Positions 5,780 to 28,981 of a stretch of 38,389 nucleotides of DNA are shown here, in pieces. How positions within the stretch are numbered: position 1 is the stretch's first letter; the number at the start of each line of letters is the position of its first letter. Position numbers and translations under genes: made by a program. Source of the DNA: Aestuariibaculum sediminum. GTDB taxonomy: Bacteria > Bacteroidota > Bacteroidia > Flavobacteriales > Flavobacteriaceae. The notes below the pieces were generated by a model, which saw only the letters and a program-made list of their open reading frames with translations, did no database searches and was not told the origin of the DNA. The stretch lies in contig NZ_JACVXB010000013.1 in NCBI RefSeq assembly GCF_014596945.1, positions 1 through 38,389 of the forward strand, written 5' to 3'.

Positions 5780-5814
5780 TTTGTTTTTTTATAACATTAA
5801 AAGTAATACATTTG
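5780..5814 (+). promoter_or_regulatory. Predicted promoter of the threonine operon
   Basis: TTTG at 5780-5783 and TACATTTG at 5807-5814 match the Bacteroidota -33 (TTTG) and -7 (TAnnTTTG) elements with 23 nt between them, at the upper end of the usual range. Transcription would start near 5821, leaving a leader of about 208 nt before thrA that contains the short Thr/Ile-rich ORF at 5866-5943. Confidence 0.6.
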
Positions 5815-5856
5815 ACATGTTCTATTACAGAAATAATGATTCTTTTAAACCAAAAT

Positions 5857-5987
5857 ACTAGCCTAATGCACGCTTTTTCAACAAAAGGGCAGACTTCTAT
5901 TTTTGGTACAACTACAATTATTACAACCCTTTGGGGTTGCTAATTATATATCTACTTCGGGCTAGTTTTGTAATTATACAATTACAA
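5857..5987 (+). promoter_or_regulatory. Candidate threonine-operon attenuator: leader RNA with alternative hairpins
   Basis: Three elements are visible. Hairpin A is CAACCC (5924-5929) with GGGTTG (5934-5939); its 5' arm overlaps the last Thr codons of the leader ORF. Hairpin B is TTGTAATT (5968-5975) with AATTACAA (5980-5987), a perfect 8-bp stem. ATTACAA at 5920-5926 is also complementary to TTGTAAT at 5968-5974, so this pairing excludes both A and B. ACTAGCC at 5857-5863, next to the leader ATG, is complementary to GGCTAGT at 5960-5966. A-run and T-run tracts follow B at about 5990-6004, but no textbook GC-rich terminator with an immediate U-run is present. The exact switching mechanism is therefore not resolved. 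Confidence 0.55.
5866..5943 (+). CDS. thrL: Threonine/isoleucine-rich leader peptide of the thr operon
   Basis: This 25-codon ORF (ATG 5866, TAA 5941) begins MHAFSTKGQTS. Seven Thr and three Ile codons are among its 25. Codons 15-21 read Thr-Thr-Thr-Ile-Ile-Thr-Thr, directly before the hairpin at 5924-5939. The ORF lies between the predicted promoter and thrA. Composition and position match the logic of the enterobacterial ThrL peptide, in which ribosome stalling at Thr and Ile codons under amino-acid shortage controls transcription into thrABC. The peptide sequence itself is not that of E. coli ThrL. Thr and Ile are the end products derived from this pathway. I infer the function from codon content and context. 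The symbol is used by analogy. Confidence 0.75.
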   Translation: MHAFSTKGQTSIFGTTTIITTLWGC

Positions 5988-6028
5988 TCAAAAAAACATT
6001 TTTTATTAAAACATCAACTAATTAAAAC

Positions 6029-8476
6029 ATGAAAGTTTTAAAATTTGGAGGAACTTCTGTTGGTTCATCAAAAAACATTAACAACGTTATAAATATTCTA
6101 CAAAATTATGCTAAAACTGATGCTATTGTATGTGTCGTTTCGGCTGTTGGCGGGATTACAGACAAGTTACTTTTAGCTGGTAGGCAAGCCAAAAATAAAG
6201 ACAATAATTATTTAGAAACGTTCGAACTTATTAAGGATATTCATTTTAAGCTTATAAAAGAGCTTAATTCTGATAACCATGATAGTATTGTTTCCTATGT
6301 GGAGGATAAATTAAATGCGTTGAAAAGTTTGTTGGATGGCATCTTTTTAATCAATGAATTGTCACCAAAAACATCGGATAAATTAGTGAGTTTTGGCGAA
6401 TTACTTTCTTCGTACATTATTGCTGAAACTATGAAAAATAGGGATATGTCGGCAGCACGAAAAAATTCGCAAGACCTTATTCTTACCAATTCTAATTTCA
6501 CAAAAGCCGAAGTGAATTACGGAGTTACCAATACTAACATACAAGCTTATTTTAAAGAAGCTAAAGAACAAGTTACCATATTACCAGGTTTTATTTCAAA
6601 ATCTAGATTAGGGGAGCAAACAACGCTGGGACGTGGTGGTTCAGATTTTACGGCTGCCATAGTTGCCGCTGCTTTAAAAGTAGAACAATTAGAAATATGG
6701 ACCGATGTTAGTGGGATGTTTACAACTAACCCTAAATTAGTAAAACAAGCTTATCCTATTAAAAAAATATCCTATCAGGAAGCAATGGAACTTTCGCATT
6801 TTGGTGCTAAAGTTCTATATCCTCCTACGGTACAACCTGTGTTGGATTTAAATATTCCAATACATATAAAAAACACCATGGAACCGGAAGCTGTTGGTAC
6901 TATAATATCAAATGAAGAAATTCCAGCTAACGGGTCCGTAGTAAAAGGGATTAGTAATATTGGAAATATTGCACTAATCACTTTACAAGGTAGTGGTATG
7001 GTAGGTATTCCCGGATTTTCCAAACGTTTGTTCGAAACCTTATCACAGGAAAAAATAAATGTTATTCTTATCACACAAGCATCTTCAGAACATTCTATTT
7101 GTTTAGGAATTGATGAAAGTGATACCGAAATAGCTAAAAACGCCATCGATGCTACTTTTGAAAACGAAATACAACTACATAAAATAGACCCTATTCTTGT
7201 CGAAAAGGGACTTTCAATTGTAGCTTTAGTTGGTGATAACATGAAAAATCATCAAGGTATTAGTGGTAAAATGTTTAGTGCGCTAGGACGAAATAATATT
7301 AATATCAGAGCGATTGCTCAAGGCGCTTCTGAAAAAAATATTTCTGCCGTTATTGCGGAAAAGGATGTAAAAAAAGCCTTAAACACTTTACATGAGCAGT
7401 TTTTTGAATCTAAAACAAAACAACTTAATGTCTTTATCACTGGAGTTGGTAATGTTGGCGAAAAACTGGTTGAGCAAATAAAACAGCAACGTAAATATTT
7501 AAAGGAAAATCTTAAAATAAACCTTCGAGTAGCAGGTTTGTCGAATTCCAGAAAAATGATTTTTAATGAGGACGGCATCGATTTAAGCGATTGGAAAGTT
7601 CAATTAAATAATGGAGAATCAGCTTCATTAGAAGGTTTTTTCGAAAATACCAAAGCACTAAACTTACGTAATAGTATTTTTGTTGATGTTACTGCAAATA
7701 GCGATGTAGCCAATTTATATCAACATTATTTACGTCAGAGCATAGGTGTTGTAGCCTGTAACAAAATAGCTTGTTCAAGTGATTTTGACAACTATAAATT
7801 ATTAAAACGTTTATCGCTTAAATACAATGCGCCATTTTTATTTGAAACCAATGTTGGTGCTGGATTACCTATTATAGATACCTTAAATAATCTTGTAGCT
7901 TCTGGCGATAAAGTAACCTCTATCCATGCTGTTTTGTCTGGAAGTTTAAACTTTGTATTTAATAATTTTAATGACAACACTAAATTTTACGATGTTGTTA
8001 AACAGGCTGCTGCCGAAGGATACACCGAGCCGGACCCCAGAATTGATTTAAGTGGCGTAGATGTTGCAAGAAAAATTTTAATCTTAGCAAGGGAAAGTGG
8101 TATCGAAATGAATTTAGAAGATATCGAAAACAAACCATTTTTATCCGAGGCAGGCTTAAAAAGTACTAGTGTAGATGATTTTTATAAAACTTTAATTGCA
8201 GACGAAGCCCATTATCAGGCATTATATGCATCGGCGAAAGCCAAAGGGTGTCAGTTAAAATATGTAGCACAATTTAATGAAGGTAAAGCAAATGTGAGTT
8301 TACAAGAAATTCCATCAGACCACCCGTTTTACAATTTAAAAGGTAGCGATAACATCGTGATGTTTTACACGAACCGCTACGCTAATCAACCAATGATCAT
8401 CAAAGGTGCGGGTGCTGGTGCCGATGTTACCGCATCAGGTTTATTTGCCGATATTATTAGAATTGGAAATAACTAA
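6029..8476 (+). CDS. thrA: Bifunctional aspartate kinase / homoserine dehydrogenase I
   Basis: This 815-residue cytoplasmic enzyme catalyses the first and third steps from aspartate toward threonine: aspartate to aspartyl phosphate, and aspartate semialdehyde to homoserine. The aspartokinase domain (about 1-290) starts with KFGGTS at residues 5-10 and has GRGGSDFTAA. ACT regulatory domains occupy about 310-460 and are the usual site of threonine feedback inhibition. The homoserine dehydrogenase domain starts near residue 466 with the NAD(P) motif GVGNVGE, followed by ACNKIA and NVGAGLPIIDTL. The length is typical of fused ThrA. It is the first enzyme gene of thrA-thrB-thrC, downstream of the Thr/Ile leader peptide. 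Confidence 0.97.
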   Translation: MKVLKFGGTSVGSSKNINNVINILQNYAKTDAIVCVVSAVGGITDKLLLAGRQAKNKDNNYLETFELIKDIHFKLIKELNSDNHDSIVSYVEDKLNALKSLLDGIFLINELSPKTSDKLVSFGELLSSYIIAETMKNRDMSAARKNSQDLILTNSNFTKAEVNYGVTNTNIQAYFKEAKEQVTILPGFISKSRLGEQTTLGRGGSDFTAAIVAAALKVEQLEIWTDVSGMFTTNPKLVKQAYPIKKISYQEAMELSHFGAKVLYPPTVQPVLDLNIPIHIKNTMEPEAVGTIISNEEIPANGSVVKGISNIGNIALITLQGSGMVGIPGFSKRLFETLSQEKINVILITQASSEHSICLGIDESDTEIAKNAIDATFENEIQLHKIDPILVEKGLSIVALVGDNMKNHQGISGKMFSALGRNNINIRAIAQGASEKNISAVIAEKDVKKALNTLHEQFFESKTKQLNVFITGVGNVGEKLVEQIKQQRKYLKENLKINLRVAGLSNSRKMIFNEDGIDLSDWKVQLNNGESASLEGFFENTKALNLRNSIFVDVTANSDVANLYQHYLRQSIGVVACNKIACSSDFDNYKLLKRLSLKYNAPFLFETNVGAGLPIIDTLNNLVASGDKVTSIHAVLSGSLNFVFNNFNDNTKFYDVVKQAAAEGYTEPDPRIDLSGVDVARKILILARESGIEMNLEDIENKPFLSEAGLKSTSVDDFYKTLIADEAHYQALYASAKAKGCQLKYVAQFNEGKANVSLQEIPSDHPFYNLKGSDNIVMFYTNRYANQPMIIKGAGAGADVTASGLFADIIRIGNN

Positions 8477-8571
8477 AAAATGGTCTCTGTTAAACACAAT
8501 TTAAGATGACTTTGTATAAAAAAAGTACCAGCTATTGCTCTAGTGCAGCTGAAAACTATCTGATAGAAAAA

Positions 8572-9495
8572 ATGAATGAAATAAAAATATTTTCACCAGC
8601 TACAGTAGCTAACGTTGCCTGCGGTTTCGATGTTATGGGCTTTTGCCTAGACAGTGTTGGTGACGAGATGGTAATTAGAAAAGTAGAAAAAAAAGGTATT
8701 CATATAACACATATAGAAGGCTTTGATTTACCTTACCAAGCAGATGAAAATGTAGCAGGTGTTTCAGCTTTAGCTATGTACAATGCTTTAGATGTCGATT
8801 TTGGCTTTGAAATTGAAATTTACAAAAACATTAAACCTGGTAGCGGTATAGGCAGTAGTGCTGCAAGTGCTGTTGGTAGTGTTTTCGGCATAAATGAGCT
8901 ACTAGGCCGTCCGTTTAACAAAACACAACTTACCGAATTTGCTATAAAAGGAGAAGCTTTGGCCAGTAAATGCGAGCATGCCGACAATCTGGCTCCTGCT
9001 ATGTTTGGAGGTTTTACACTTGTAAAAAGTTTAGATCCTTTAGAAATTCTTGAAATTCCTTGTCCTGAAAATTTATACGCTACAATAATTCATCCTCAAA
9101 TAGAAATAAAAACGAGTGAGGCCAGAGCTATTTTACCTAAAGATGTGGCCTTGAATAATGCAATTACCCAGTGGGCAAATTTTGGCAGTTTAATTCATGG
9201 GTTACACACTAGCAATTTTGGTTTAATACAAAGATCTTTAAATGACGTTATTGTTGAACCTTATCGAAGTCAACTGATTCCATATTATGATGAAGTGAAA
9301 AAGGCAGCCTTACATGCAGGGGCATTAGGTGCAGGAATTTCGGGTTCAGGACCTTCCGTTTTCACACTAAATGAAGGCTTAGAAACCGCTAATAACGTTG
9401 CTGAAAGTATAAAAGCCATATACGCAAAAACAGATATTGATTTCGATGTTCATGTTTCCCCAATAAACACTTACGGAATCAAAATATTAAACTAA
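8572..9495 (+). CDS. thrB: Homoserine kinase
   Basis: ThrB phosphorylates homoserine to O-phosphohomoserine. I chose ATG 8572 (MNEIKIFSPATVANVACG), which gives 307 residues, close to the E. coli length of 310, and begins right at the first conserved strand. An in-frame ATG at 8506 would add 22 unconserved-looking residues. The GHMP-kinase phosphate loop PGSGIGSSAASAVG is at about residues 89-102, and the C-terminal glycine motif GAGISGSGPSVF is present. It lies between thrA and thrC on the same strand, so cotranscription is expected. Confidence 0.95.
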   Translation: MNEIKIFSPATVANVACGFDVMGFCLDSVGDEMVIRKVEKKGIHITHIEGFDLPYQADENVAGVSALAMYNALDVDFGFEIEIYKNIKPGSGIGSSAASAVGSVFGINELLGRPFNKTQLTEFAIKGEALASKCEHADNLAPAMFGGFTLVKSLDPLEILEIPCPENLYATIIHPQIEIKTSEARAILPKDVALNNAITQWANFGSLIHGLHTSNFGLIQRSLNDVIVEPYRSQLIPYYDEVKKAALHAGALGAGISGSGPSVFTLNEGLETANNVAESIKAIYAKTDIDFDVHVSPINTYGIKILN

Positions 9496-9520: not shown

Positions 9521-10813
9521 ATGAACTATTACTCATTAAACCACCAAGCACCAAAATCATCGTTTAAAGATGCAGTTATAAAAGGATTGGCTCCTGATAA
9601 AGGGTTATACTTTCCAGAAACCATAGCGCCACTTCCGAAGTCATTTTTTGAAAATATAGATAACTTATCCTATTCTGAGATTGCTTTTGAAGCCATCAAA
9701 CAATTTGTATCACCTGAAATACCAGAGGAAACCCTTAAAACTATTGTTGAAGAAACGCTTTCTTTTGAATTTCCTGTTATTCAATTAAACGAAAATATCT
9801 CTGTATTAGAACTTTTTCATGGGCCAACAATGGCGTTTAAAGATGTTGGCGCTCGATTTATGGCGCGTTGTCTAGGATATTTCAACAAAAACAATGAAAA
9901 AGAAGTAACGGTTTTAGTAGCCACATCGGGAGATACTGGAGGTGCTGTTGCCAACGGATTTTTAGGTGTTAAAGGGGTTAATGTAGTTATACTCTACCCT
10001 AGCGGAAAAGTTAGCGATATTCAGGAAAAGCAATTAACTACTTTAGGTCAAAATATAAAAGCTTTGGAAGTTAATGGCACTTTTGATGATTGTCAGGCTA
10101 TGGTAAAAAAAGCTTTTTTAGATGATAGCCTTACCAATAAGATGCAACTCACATCTGCAAATTCCATAAATGTGGCGCGTTGGTTACCCCAACTATTTTA
10201 TTTTATGTTTGCCTACAAGCAGTTACATAATAAACATAAAGATATCGTGTTTTCGGTTCCTAGTGGAAACTTTGGAAATATATGTGCTGGTATGATGGCG
10301 CAGCAACTAGGTTTACCTATTAAACATTTCGTAGCTTCAAATAACGCTAATAATGTGGTAACACGCTACCTAGTATCAAAATTATACGAACCAAAACCAT
10401 CTATTCAAACCATTAGTAATGCTATGGATGTAGGGGCGCCAAGTAATTTTATCCGTATTCAGGAAATTTATAAGAACAATTTTGAAAATTTAAAACAAAA
10501 CCTATCATCTTTCAGTTATTCTGATGATGAAACCAGAGTAGCAATGAAAGAAATATACAATAAATATAATTATGTTGCCGACCCGCATGGTGCAGTTGGT
10601 TATCTTGGATGCAAAGCCTATTTAAAAGAAAACCCGAATACACACTGTGTGTTTTTAGAAACTGCACATCCTACCAAATTTTTGGATGTAGTTGAAGATG
10701 TTATTCAAGAAAAACAACCTTTACCAGAACAAATAAAAGAGGTAATTGATAAAGAAAAAGAATCGTTTGTCATTACCGGTTATGATGATTTAAAGGATTT
10801 TCTTTTAAACTAA
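9521..10813 (+). CDS. thrC: Threonine synthase
   Basis: This 430-residue PLP-dependent enzyme converts O-phosphohomoserine to threonine, the last step of the pathway. The N-terminal threonine-synthase domain is followed by the fold-type II PLP core. Lys107 in GPTMAFKDVG is the expected Schiff-base lysine. Phosphate-binding glycines are visible in ATSGDTGGAV, and SANSINVARWLPQ is characteristic of the family. The gene begins 25 nt after thrB and ends at a strong hairpin terminator, so it closes the operon. Confidence 0.97.
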   Translation: MNYYSLNHQAPKSSFKDAVIKGLAPDKGLYFPETIAPLPKSFFENIDNLSYSEIAFEAIKQFVSPEIPEETLKTIVEETLSFEFPVIQLNENISVLELFHGPTMAFKDVGARFMARCLGYFNKNNEKEVTVLVATSGDTGGAVANGFLGVKGVNVVILYPSGKVSDIQEKQLTTLGQNIKALEVNGTFDDCQAMVKKAFLDDSLTNKMQLTSANSINVARWLPQLFYFMFAYKQLHNKHKDIVFSVPSGNFGNICAGMMAQQLGLPIKHFVASNNANNVVTRYLVSKLYEPKPSIQTISNAMDVGAPSNFIRIQEIYKNNFENLKQNLSSFSYSDDETRVAMKEIYNKYNYVADPHGAVGYLGCKAYLKENPNTHCVFLETAHPTKFLDVVEDVIQEKQPLPEQIKEVIDKEKESFVITGYDDLKDFLLN

Positions 10814-28655: not shown

Positions 28656-28661
28656 ATTCTT

Positions 28662-28976
28662 AAGTAAATCTATAAGCCGAATTCTGTTCTTCCCGATTAG
28701 GAATACCTTATCATTTATCTGAGTGTACTGTTACCAGCATACTTTAGCTGCCTACCCTCCAACAATCGAACGTGCCGCCCTCAAACGTTGGTATACATGA
28801 CATTGCACCACATAGAGTTTACCTGATTTCACTACAGCATTACCTGTACATTCTTTCTGTTGCACTTTTCCTAACCTCACGGCTGGTGGCCATTAACCAC
28901 TATGTTGCACTACGGTGTTCGGACTTTCCTCTAAATAAACACAAATGCGAAAATTTAGCGATAAGGCGATTTACTT
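28662..28976 (-). ncRNA. rnpB: RNase P RNA, bacterial class A
   Basis: The minus strand contains the universal RNase P core. GAGGAAAGTCCG (complement of 28920-28931) is the conserved 5' P4 region. CAGAATTCGGCTTATAG (complement of 28670-28686) is the conserved 3' P4 region. The ends AAGTAAATC (from 28976) and GATTTACTT (to 28662) are complementary and form helix P1, which sets the boundaries at about 315 nt. CTGGTAACAG in the interior is a typical GNRA-like capped helix. The RNA is the catalytic subunit that matures tRNA 5' ends. A consensus -7 box lies 5 nt upstream of the inferred 5' end. ORFs drawn through this region are spurious. Confidence 0.95.
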
Positions 28977-28981
28977 GCAGG

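Follow-up and report, generated by a model that had tools for sequence, protein, structure and literature searches.

The reading frame ahead of thrABC

The window, which is the whole stretch of 38,389 nucleotides that was analysed, carries the threonine operon on its forward strand: thrA, encoding bifunctional aspartate kinase/homoserine dehydrogenase I (6029-8476; NCBIfam NF006959, 1037 bits), thrB, encoding homoserine kinase (8506-9495; TIGR00191 and NF002288), and thrC, encoding threonine synthase (9521-10813; TIGR00260). Because the thrB profile match starts at residue 27, the true start of this gene is probably downstream of 8506. ThrA is 89% identical to its counterparts in three relatives (L001, L002 and L005), and by this protein the genome is close to Aestuariibaculum (Flavobacteriaceae). 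Bacterial RNase P RNA class A lies elsewhere in the window (28657-28977, reverse strand, 192 bits).

Ahead of thrA, the initial annotation had placed a 25-codon ORF at 5866-5943, preceded by a promoter-like pair, TTTG-N23-TACATTTG. The pair is present on the forward strand at 5780-5814 (TTTG at 5780-5783, TACATTTG at 5807-5814), as read from the sequence and, for the -7 box, also by pattern count. The letters and codon counts of the ORF hold as well (ATG to TAA, with 7 Thr and 3 Ile codons), but its start does not. The conserved leader ORF begins at an ATG at 5836, 30 nt further upstream, and runs on the forward strand to 5943 as 35 codons including 8 Thr (MILLNQNTSLMHAFSTKGQTSIFGTTTIITTLWGC, then stop); comparison of close loci marks the Met codon at 5866 as internal and not kept in relatives.

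The close set comprises 81 loci, namely the window and the best 80 of 386 relatives. The leader ORF was found in 79 of them, with ATG as the upstream start in 77 and GTG in 2, and spans 35 codons in 56 of the 79 (27-37 in the remainder). All 79 have a TAnnTTTG box within 60 nt of the leader start, at a median of 20 nt before it (IQR 19-21). No leader was found upstream of thrA in L061; in L076 (Lacinutrix sp. C3R15) the leader is missing and the TAnnTTTG promoter kept, with thrA, judged by eye, about 40 nt behind the -7 box. L004 and L008 have an intact leader followed by about 88 and 65 nt of extra sequence before thrA, and in L039 the leader is further away.

Searching for thrA in two overlapping sets of 148 genomes each, one from the order and one from the phylum, we read 106 wider thrA upstream regions, which are part of the matches listed and mostly the best-scoring ones. 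A strict detector, demanding a Thr/Ile run, an abutting hairpin and a stop codon, was positive in 52 of 81 close and 35 of 106 wider upstream regions versus 1 of 561 dinucleotide shuffles. The Thr/Ile leader ORF is beyond chance. The TAnnTTTG box was seen near the leader start in 23 of 33 wider leaders, at a median of 10 nt before it.

The run Thr-Thr-Thr-Ile-Ile-Thr-Thr, noted previously at codons 15-21 of the shorter ORF, was confirmed by reading the sequence and occupies codons 25-31 of the conserved one (5908-5928, forward strand). Codon fractions were taken in 112 leaders, 79 close and 33 wider, over the eight codons before the ACC codon at the foot of a hairpin, H2. In frame, the fraction of Thr codons among these is 0.50, versus 0.01 and 0.00 in the other frames, and all four Thr codons are used. 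Per eight codons, close leaders (n=79) have on average 3.8 Thr and 1.3 Ile, and wider leaders (n=33) 4.3 Thr and 1.7 Ile; further upstream in the leader ORFs, Thr accounts for 13% and Ile for 11%. A Thr codon stands at the H2 foot in all 112 leaders, but as ACC is demanded there by the search pattern it is no evidence, and only the preceding Thr codons count. Six leaders (L062, L064, L073, L075, L079 and L149) have a single Thr among the eight codons, yet keep H2. Some leaders look as if decaying, with few Thr codons and an H2-like hairpin remaining: L064, L065, L067, L075 (Gelidibacter), L071, L073 (Psychroserpens) and L110.

Selection on the encoded residues is visible in how the codons change. 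Within the Thr block (codons -6, -5, -4, -2 and -1; 69 of the 79 close leaders), differences per codon pair rise from 0.17 at the first position to 0.29 at the second and 0.40 at the third; at codons -18 to -10 of the same 69 leaders, where the ORF start is out of register, the three positions are alike (0.53, 0.52 and 0.49). Aligning thrA upstream regions of Flavobacteriaceae, as the initial annotation had suggested, shows that ORF position, frame and Thr/Ile codons are kept, with synonymous changes, and that other codons drift. Comparison thus strongly supports the short ORF as a putative threonine-sensing leader peptide of thrABC, and the element very probably senses Thr/Ile through translation.

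Hairpins, linker and their spread across Bacteroidota

The region 5818-6028 (211 nt) has a more stable predicted fold than shuffled sequence (z -2.33; 3 of 200 shuffles equally good). Hairpins on the forward strand, along with the lack of a terminator described below, extend the earlier observation, which included neither. H1 (5872-5890; GCUUUUU CAACA AAAGGGC) is predicted inside the ORF. H2 (5924-5939; CAACCC UUUG GGGUUG) overlaps the last two Thr codons; with about 5-6 bp it is a short hairpin, and no good U-tract accompanies it. The stop codon (5941-5943) and an unpaired, G-poor linker follow at 5940-5967, identified by position-specific counts and base composition as the counterpart of a motif, CAUAUMAUCC, in wider leaders. 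H3 (5968-5987; UUGUAAUU AUAC AAUUACAA) has no U-tract behind it in the window; in most close relatives thrA begins about 39 nt past the H3 end.

Among all column pairs in an alignment of 78 sequences, the best covarying pair belongs to H3 and the second best to H1, and further covarying pairs are scattered and noise-like. Across 69 of the 79 close leaders, 92.5% of the cells in the H2+H3 structure pair, and 45 cells show double-sided changes versus 13.4 in shuffles; none of 500 shuffles reached 45, and no slide came near. About 40 of the 45 double-changed cells are in H3, all six pairs of whose main helix show double changes. The H2 core is almost invariant among close relatives; its outer two pairs vary, failing in 21 and 15 of 68 rows. 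By this comparison covariation is clear in H3 and, in H2, present at the outer pairs. Three wider loci carry an inverted H2 (L155/L156, ACGGG-GUGA/GUAA-CCCGU; L162, ACGGG-GUGAU-CCCGU), which we take to be a compensatory change if the loci are homologous. H1 is variable in sequence and not alignable among relatives; its region has a mean fold z of -1.69 in the 79 close and -1.70 in the 33 wider leaders versus -0.65 in a thrA coding control (n=78), with 24% of close and 30% of wider leaders missing z below -1.

Leaders share one plan, in which the Thr run abuts H2, the stop codon falls in the H2 loop or just behind it, and a G-poor linker and then H3 follow. In wider leaders the linker often carries CAUAUMAU, and the ATAT core lies 12-14 nt past the H2 G run in 26 of 32 leaders. 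The distance from stop codon to thrA is 66-186 nt in 33 wider loci and 70-93 nt in 76 close loci, with L008 (147 nt), L004 (170 nt) and L039 (273 nt) as exceptions among the latter. The position of the linker motif is set by H2 rather than by the thrA start, which makes control of thrA initiation less likely. Linker composition is 0.04 G and 0.23 C in wider and 0.10 G and 0.16 C in close leaders, with about 2 YC per 21 nt, which is no more than suggestive of Rho; because the stretch before thrA is likewise G-poor, G depletion does not single out this factor.

Three other pairings were discarded. One between ACTAGCC in the first third of the ORF and GGCTAGT in the linker occurs in the window fold only and, by eye, is absent from the alignment of relatives. 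Another, between the H2 3' arm and linker and the H3 3' arm, fits some sequences, is broken by eye where H3 has changed, and has no general effect in the blocking predictions described below. For the leader start and the thrA start region, both AU-rich, covariation was not seen by eye in the alignment. A pattern search of the window's own genome for H2+H3 found no place other than the thr leader.

The 106 wider upstream regions divide into 37 with a leader of the window type (35 passing the strict detector, plus L122 and L149, added because the covariance model below matches them), 10 with a Thr/Ile leader and an intrinsic terminator, 2 with a Thr-rich ORF and neither, and 57 classified as none by script, eleven of these being genomes of about 0.6 Mb (L127-L137). 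Window-type leaders occur in families f1, f2, f5, f18, f22 (with inverted H2) and f35. Within f5, genus g9 has the window type and genus g54 the classical type.

We built a covariance model, R1, from the Thr codons, H2 and linker of 48 sequences. It matches 34 of 96 thr sources, 12 of the 34 unused in building; in 36 further sources, his, ilv and trp among them, no match rises above chance (best E 1). Of its 14 matches in 118 whole genomes, 13 sit immediately upstream of thrA. A match in G170 (L238, E 0.02), where a Thr leader was not seen and a different gene follows, was taken as chance. R1 misses some known thrA leaders, including those of G072, G199, G223 and G236, owing to stricter filters and, in G199 and G223, an inverted H2; its counts are therefore lower bounds. 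The genome also holds a second aspartate kinase/homoserine dehydrogenase homologue (L082, C17:100379-102781; 36% identical to ThrA, 1145-aa open frame), with no R1 match in the surrounding stretch examined. An Rfam scan of the window's leader gave no match at the gathering threshold, and the two weaker ones, to snoRNAs with E up to 5, are taken as chance; the Bacteroid-trp (RF01692) covariance model had no match in the leader, and no T-box family was among the Rfam matches. An Rfam-type family could be curated from the thr leader element.

How the leader may act

Leader-peptide attenuation is textbook regulation, and ThrL of enterobacteria (Rfam Thr_leader), a Thr/Ile-rich leader upstream of thrABC, acts via a terminator with a U-run and an antiterminator. 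We scored intrinsic terminators with one rule for all groups, a single hairpin of at most -8 kcal/mol with a U-rich tail. They were found in 11 of 11 hisG upstream regions from the same and related genomes and in 9 of 9 Bacteroid-trp regions, two of the nine below the family cut-off, with scores of -14.0 to -22.9. Window-type thr leaders scored in only 4 of 78 close and 2 of 35 wider cases (L046, L058, L065, L069, L124 and L201), all through an H2-based hairpin of -8.0 to -12.6 kcal/mol with a U-rich stretch behind it, and the window's own leader has no intrinsic terminator by the same rule. The positives include the his (L093) and trp (L218) leaders of this genome; the lack therefore belongs to the thr leader and not to the organism. 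Classical thr leaders scored in 9 of 9, but they had been chosen for their terminators and provide no independent control. Nor does H3 serve as a systematic terminator: U counts behind it range from 0 to 7 of 8, with U-rich tails in some close relatives such as L015, L025, L047 and L048.

Other leaders were seen along the way. The his leader of this genome (C14 near 627110) reads MKFIQNHHHHFQICSQAN and has a classical terminator, and Ile/Val-rich leaders (MRNQILISISIIVIVIISQG...) with a hairpin and U-run precede ilvD in two congeneric genomes (L105 and L107). The Bacteroid-trp RNA (RF01692) is at C11:94571-94693 (66 bits) with a 3-Trp reading frame, MKIILNNIWWWHFTNSGS. A 14-mer, TTTAAACCAAAATA, has three copies genome-wide, one in the thr leader at codons 3-8 (5844-5857), one in the trp leader just before the terminator (C11:94665-94678, L225) and one a short way before another gene (L226). 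That two leaders share it could be coincidence or reflect a common signal.

Blocking the H2 5' arm in silico, in 76 of the 79 close and 19 of the 33 wider leaders, changed predicted H3 pairing by -0.08 +- 1.17 and -0.42 +- 1.37 pairs, respectively. In the window alone, pairing fell from 8.6 to 4.0 pairs. By thermodynamic prediction, no alternative partner was consistent across leaders. The ThrL-like attenuation proposed by the initial annotation is supported in part, through the putative Thr-sensing leader peptide; neither an intrinsic terminator nor a general antiterminator was recovered for this leader type. Classical transcription attenuation, in which H3 or H2 would be an intrinsic terminator and stalling would bring in an antiterminator as in the organism's own his and trp leaders, suits the Thr/Ile leader peptide, its place and the operon. 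It can also draw on the U-rich tails behind H3 in some relatives and behind the H2-based hairpin in six leaders, on the classical thr attenuators of 10 of the 106 other Bacteroidota thrA upstream regions, and on the drop in H3 pairing in the window; the thr terminator counts set against those of hisG and trp, and the unchanged average H3 pairing, nevertheless make it unlikely.

Similarly doubtful is translational attenuation, in which the leader fold would hide the thrA start region and a stalled ribosome would expose it. Precedent comes from passages on cysteine genes of Mycobacterium smegmatis (PMC13236596) and from terminator-less Cys-run leaders (PMC1262725), and the position of the H3 end, about 39 nt before thrA, would suit it. 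Against this, predicted openness of the thrA start is unchanged on average by H2 arm blocking (0.004 +- 0.035 in the 76 close and 0.001 +- 0.049 in the 19 wider leaders), and the stop-to-thrA spacing varies from 66 to 186 nt in wider loci. The linker is fixed to H2 rather than to thrA, and blocking H2 has no average effect on the thrA start or H3; this favours RNA polymerase, Rho or a nuclease over thrA translation as the target.

A nuclease would be the target if the leader were a switch in mRNA processing or stability, with the AU-rich H2-H3 linker as a cleavage site shielded by the stalled ribosome and H3 protecting the new 5' end. The AU-rich single-stranded stretch between two conserved hairpins fits, and such a switch would account for an H3 whose structure is maintained although its sequence varies freely and mostly no U-tract follows; but a ribosome held at the Thr block is unlikely to extend as far as the linker centre, 12-20 nt past H2, and we think this switch improbable. 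Two further TAnnTTTG boxes lie within the window's leader, at 5898-5905 and at 5963-5970 (TAGTTTTG). Boxes of the latter type occur at the linker/H3 border in 26 of 79 close leaders versus 3.6% of mononucleotide shuffles, 19 of the 26 with a TTG 21 or 23 nt upstream, and resemble an internal promoter that some members of the close clade have. That linker conservation reflects a thrA promoter (TTG ... TAnnTTTG) unrelated to the leader is very improbable as a general account, the box being found in only 2 of 33 wider leaders and leaving the Thr codons, H1, H2 and the CAUAUMAU motif unexplained.

The reading we favour, with a probability of roughly 55%, is a ribosome-sensing, attenuator-type thrABC leader in which a stalled ribosome would block H2, which would otherwise halt transcription by a pause or Rho. 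Translation would start about 20 nt behind the -7 box, and H1 probably holds RNA polymerase until the first ribosome catches up. The ribosome would then read the Thr/Ile block running directly into H2. When charged tRNA-Thr (or Ile) is short, it would stall on the block; because H2 adjoins the control codons, stalling at the last of these should bring the H2 5' arm under the ribosome, so that H2 could not form and polymerase would continue into thrABC. When threonine is plentiful, the ribosome would reach the stop codon, within or immediately past H2, and be released, and the freed H2 would form about 10-12 nt behind polymerase transcribing the linker. There polymerase would pause and transcription would end despite the lack of a canonical U-tract, most likely assisted by Rho or NusA/NusG.

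In this attenuator-type reading, comparison across loci underlies the ORF, the Thr/Ile block, H3, the outer H2 pairs, H1, the order of the parts and the lack of a recognisable intrinsic terminator. From these we infer stalling, the role of H2 as switch, action on transcription and a helper factor. Several points tell against it: H2 is short and lacks a good U-tract; a ribosome stalled at the first, far-upstream Thr codons might leave H2 free; some lineages retain H2 with a single Thr among the eight codons; roughly 30% of wider leaders show no H1; and the reading assigns no role to H3, whose predicted pairing in the window does suffer when the H2 arm is blocked. More tentatively, and as a possibility short of even odds, the leader may be a phylum-wide, thrA-specific RNA element whose control codons are part of the regulatory hairpin. 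The stalled ribosome would then block H2 directly, H2 and the CAUAUMAU linker would make up a stop or pause signal that works without a terminator and is specific to the RNA polymerase of Bacteroidota (or to Rho), and an antiterminator would not be required. This signal and the classical terminator, which occur in different genera of family f5, would be interchangeable outputs of a single sensor. The question raised is how a stalled ribosome may control thrABC without an intrinsic terminator, and whether the CAUAUMAU linker is a Bacteroidota pause or Rho site.

Comparison with known leaders

The initial annotation called regulation by leader peptides little described in Bacteroidota. This is fair, yet Rfam already has Bacteroid-trp (RF01692). 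Vitreschak and colleagues reportedly named Bacteroidetes/Chlorobi among attenuator carriers in 2004. Leader-peptide attenuation has been reported for amino-acid operons of Flavobacterium psychrophilum (PMC9723704), in a main text from which the word threonine is absent, and leader peptides in Bacteroidota are also remarked on in a passage of PMC7366714; PMC2965389 has no occurrence of Bacteroid-, Flavobacter- or threonine. From these sources, Bacteroidota attenuation in the open literature appears to amount to the Bacteroid-trp motif and brief transcriptome remarks. Within the open-access literature searched, we found no description of a thr leader in Bacteroidota, and in particular no account of its phylum-wide anatomy, of its lack of a terminator beside his and trp terminators, or of the conserved linker.

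The thr leader resembles ThrL in being a Thr/Ile-rich leader peptide directly upstream of thrABC; it differs in that ThrL has a terminator with a U-run, whereas none was found in the window-type leader and Rfam gave no match. Bacteroid-trp is likewise a leader-type RNA of Bacteroidota, in the same genome, but has a strong terminator hairpin with a U-run in 9 of 9 regions, and R1 finds none of these above chance. The F. psychrophilum report concerns the same bacterial family and makes the same general claim (PMC9723704). This one genome offers a natural comparison, since its his and trp leaders carry ordinary terminators and its thr leader, found with sensor and hairpins in several families of Bacteroidota, does not.

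Mycobacterial Cys-run leaders, as described in passages of PMC1262725, are alike in having control codons near the stop codon and no obvious terminator, for which the authors suggested Rho; they differ in phylum and amino acid, and no conserved terminator-capable hairpin is described there, versus conserved hairpins here. In the actinobacterial LEU element of the same source, Leu codons pair with a Shine-Dalgarno box, unlike in the thr leader (PMC1262725). In the toiL uORF, ribosome position decides premature Rho-dependent termination in response to ribosome-targeting drugs (PMC12121999). The proposed output of the thr leader would also be set by ribosome position on an upstream ORF, as in toiL; it would differ in sensing uncharged tRNA-Thr/Ile rather than tryptophan or drugs, and Rho is only a proposal for the thr leader. 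The same likeness and difference hold for tnaC. There, too, the position of the ribosome on the upstream ORF decides premature Rho-dependent termination, and the signal sensed is tryptophan.
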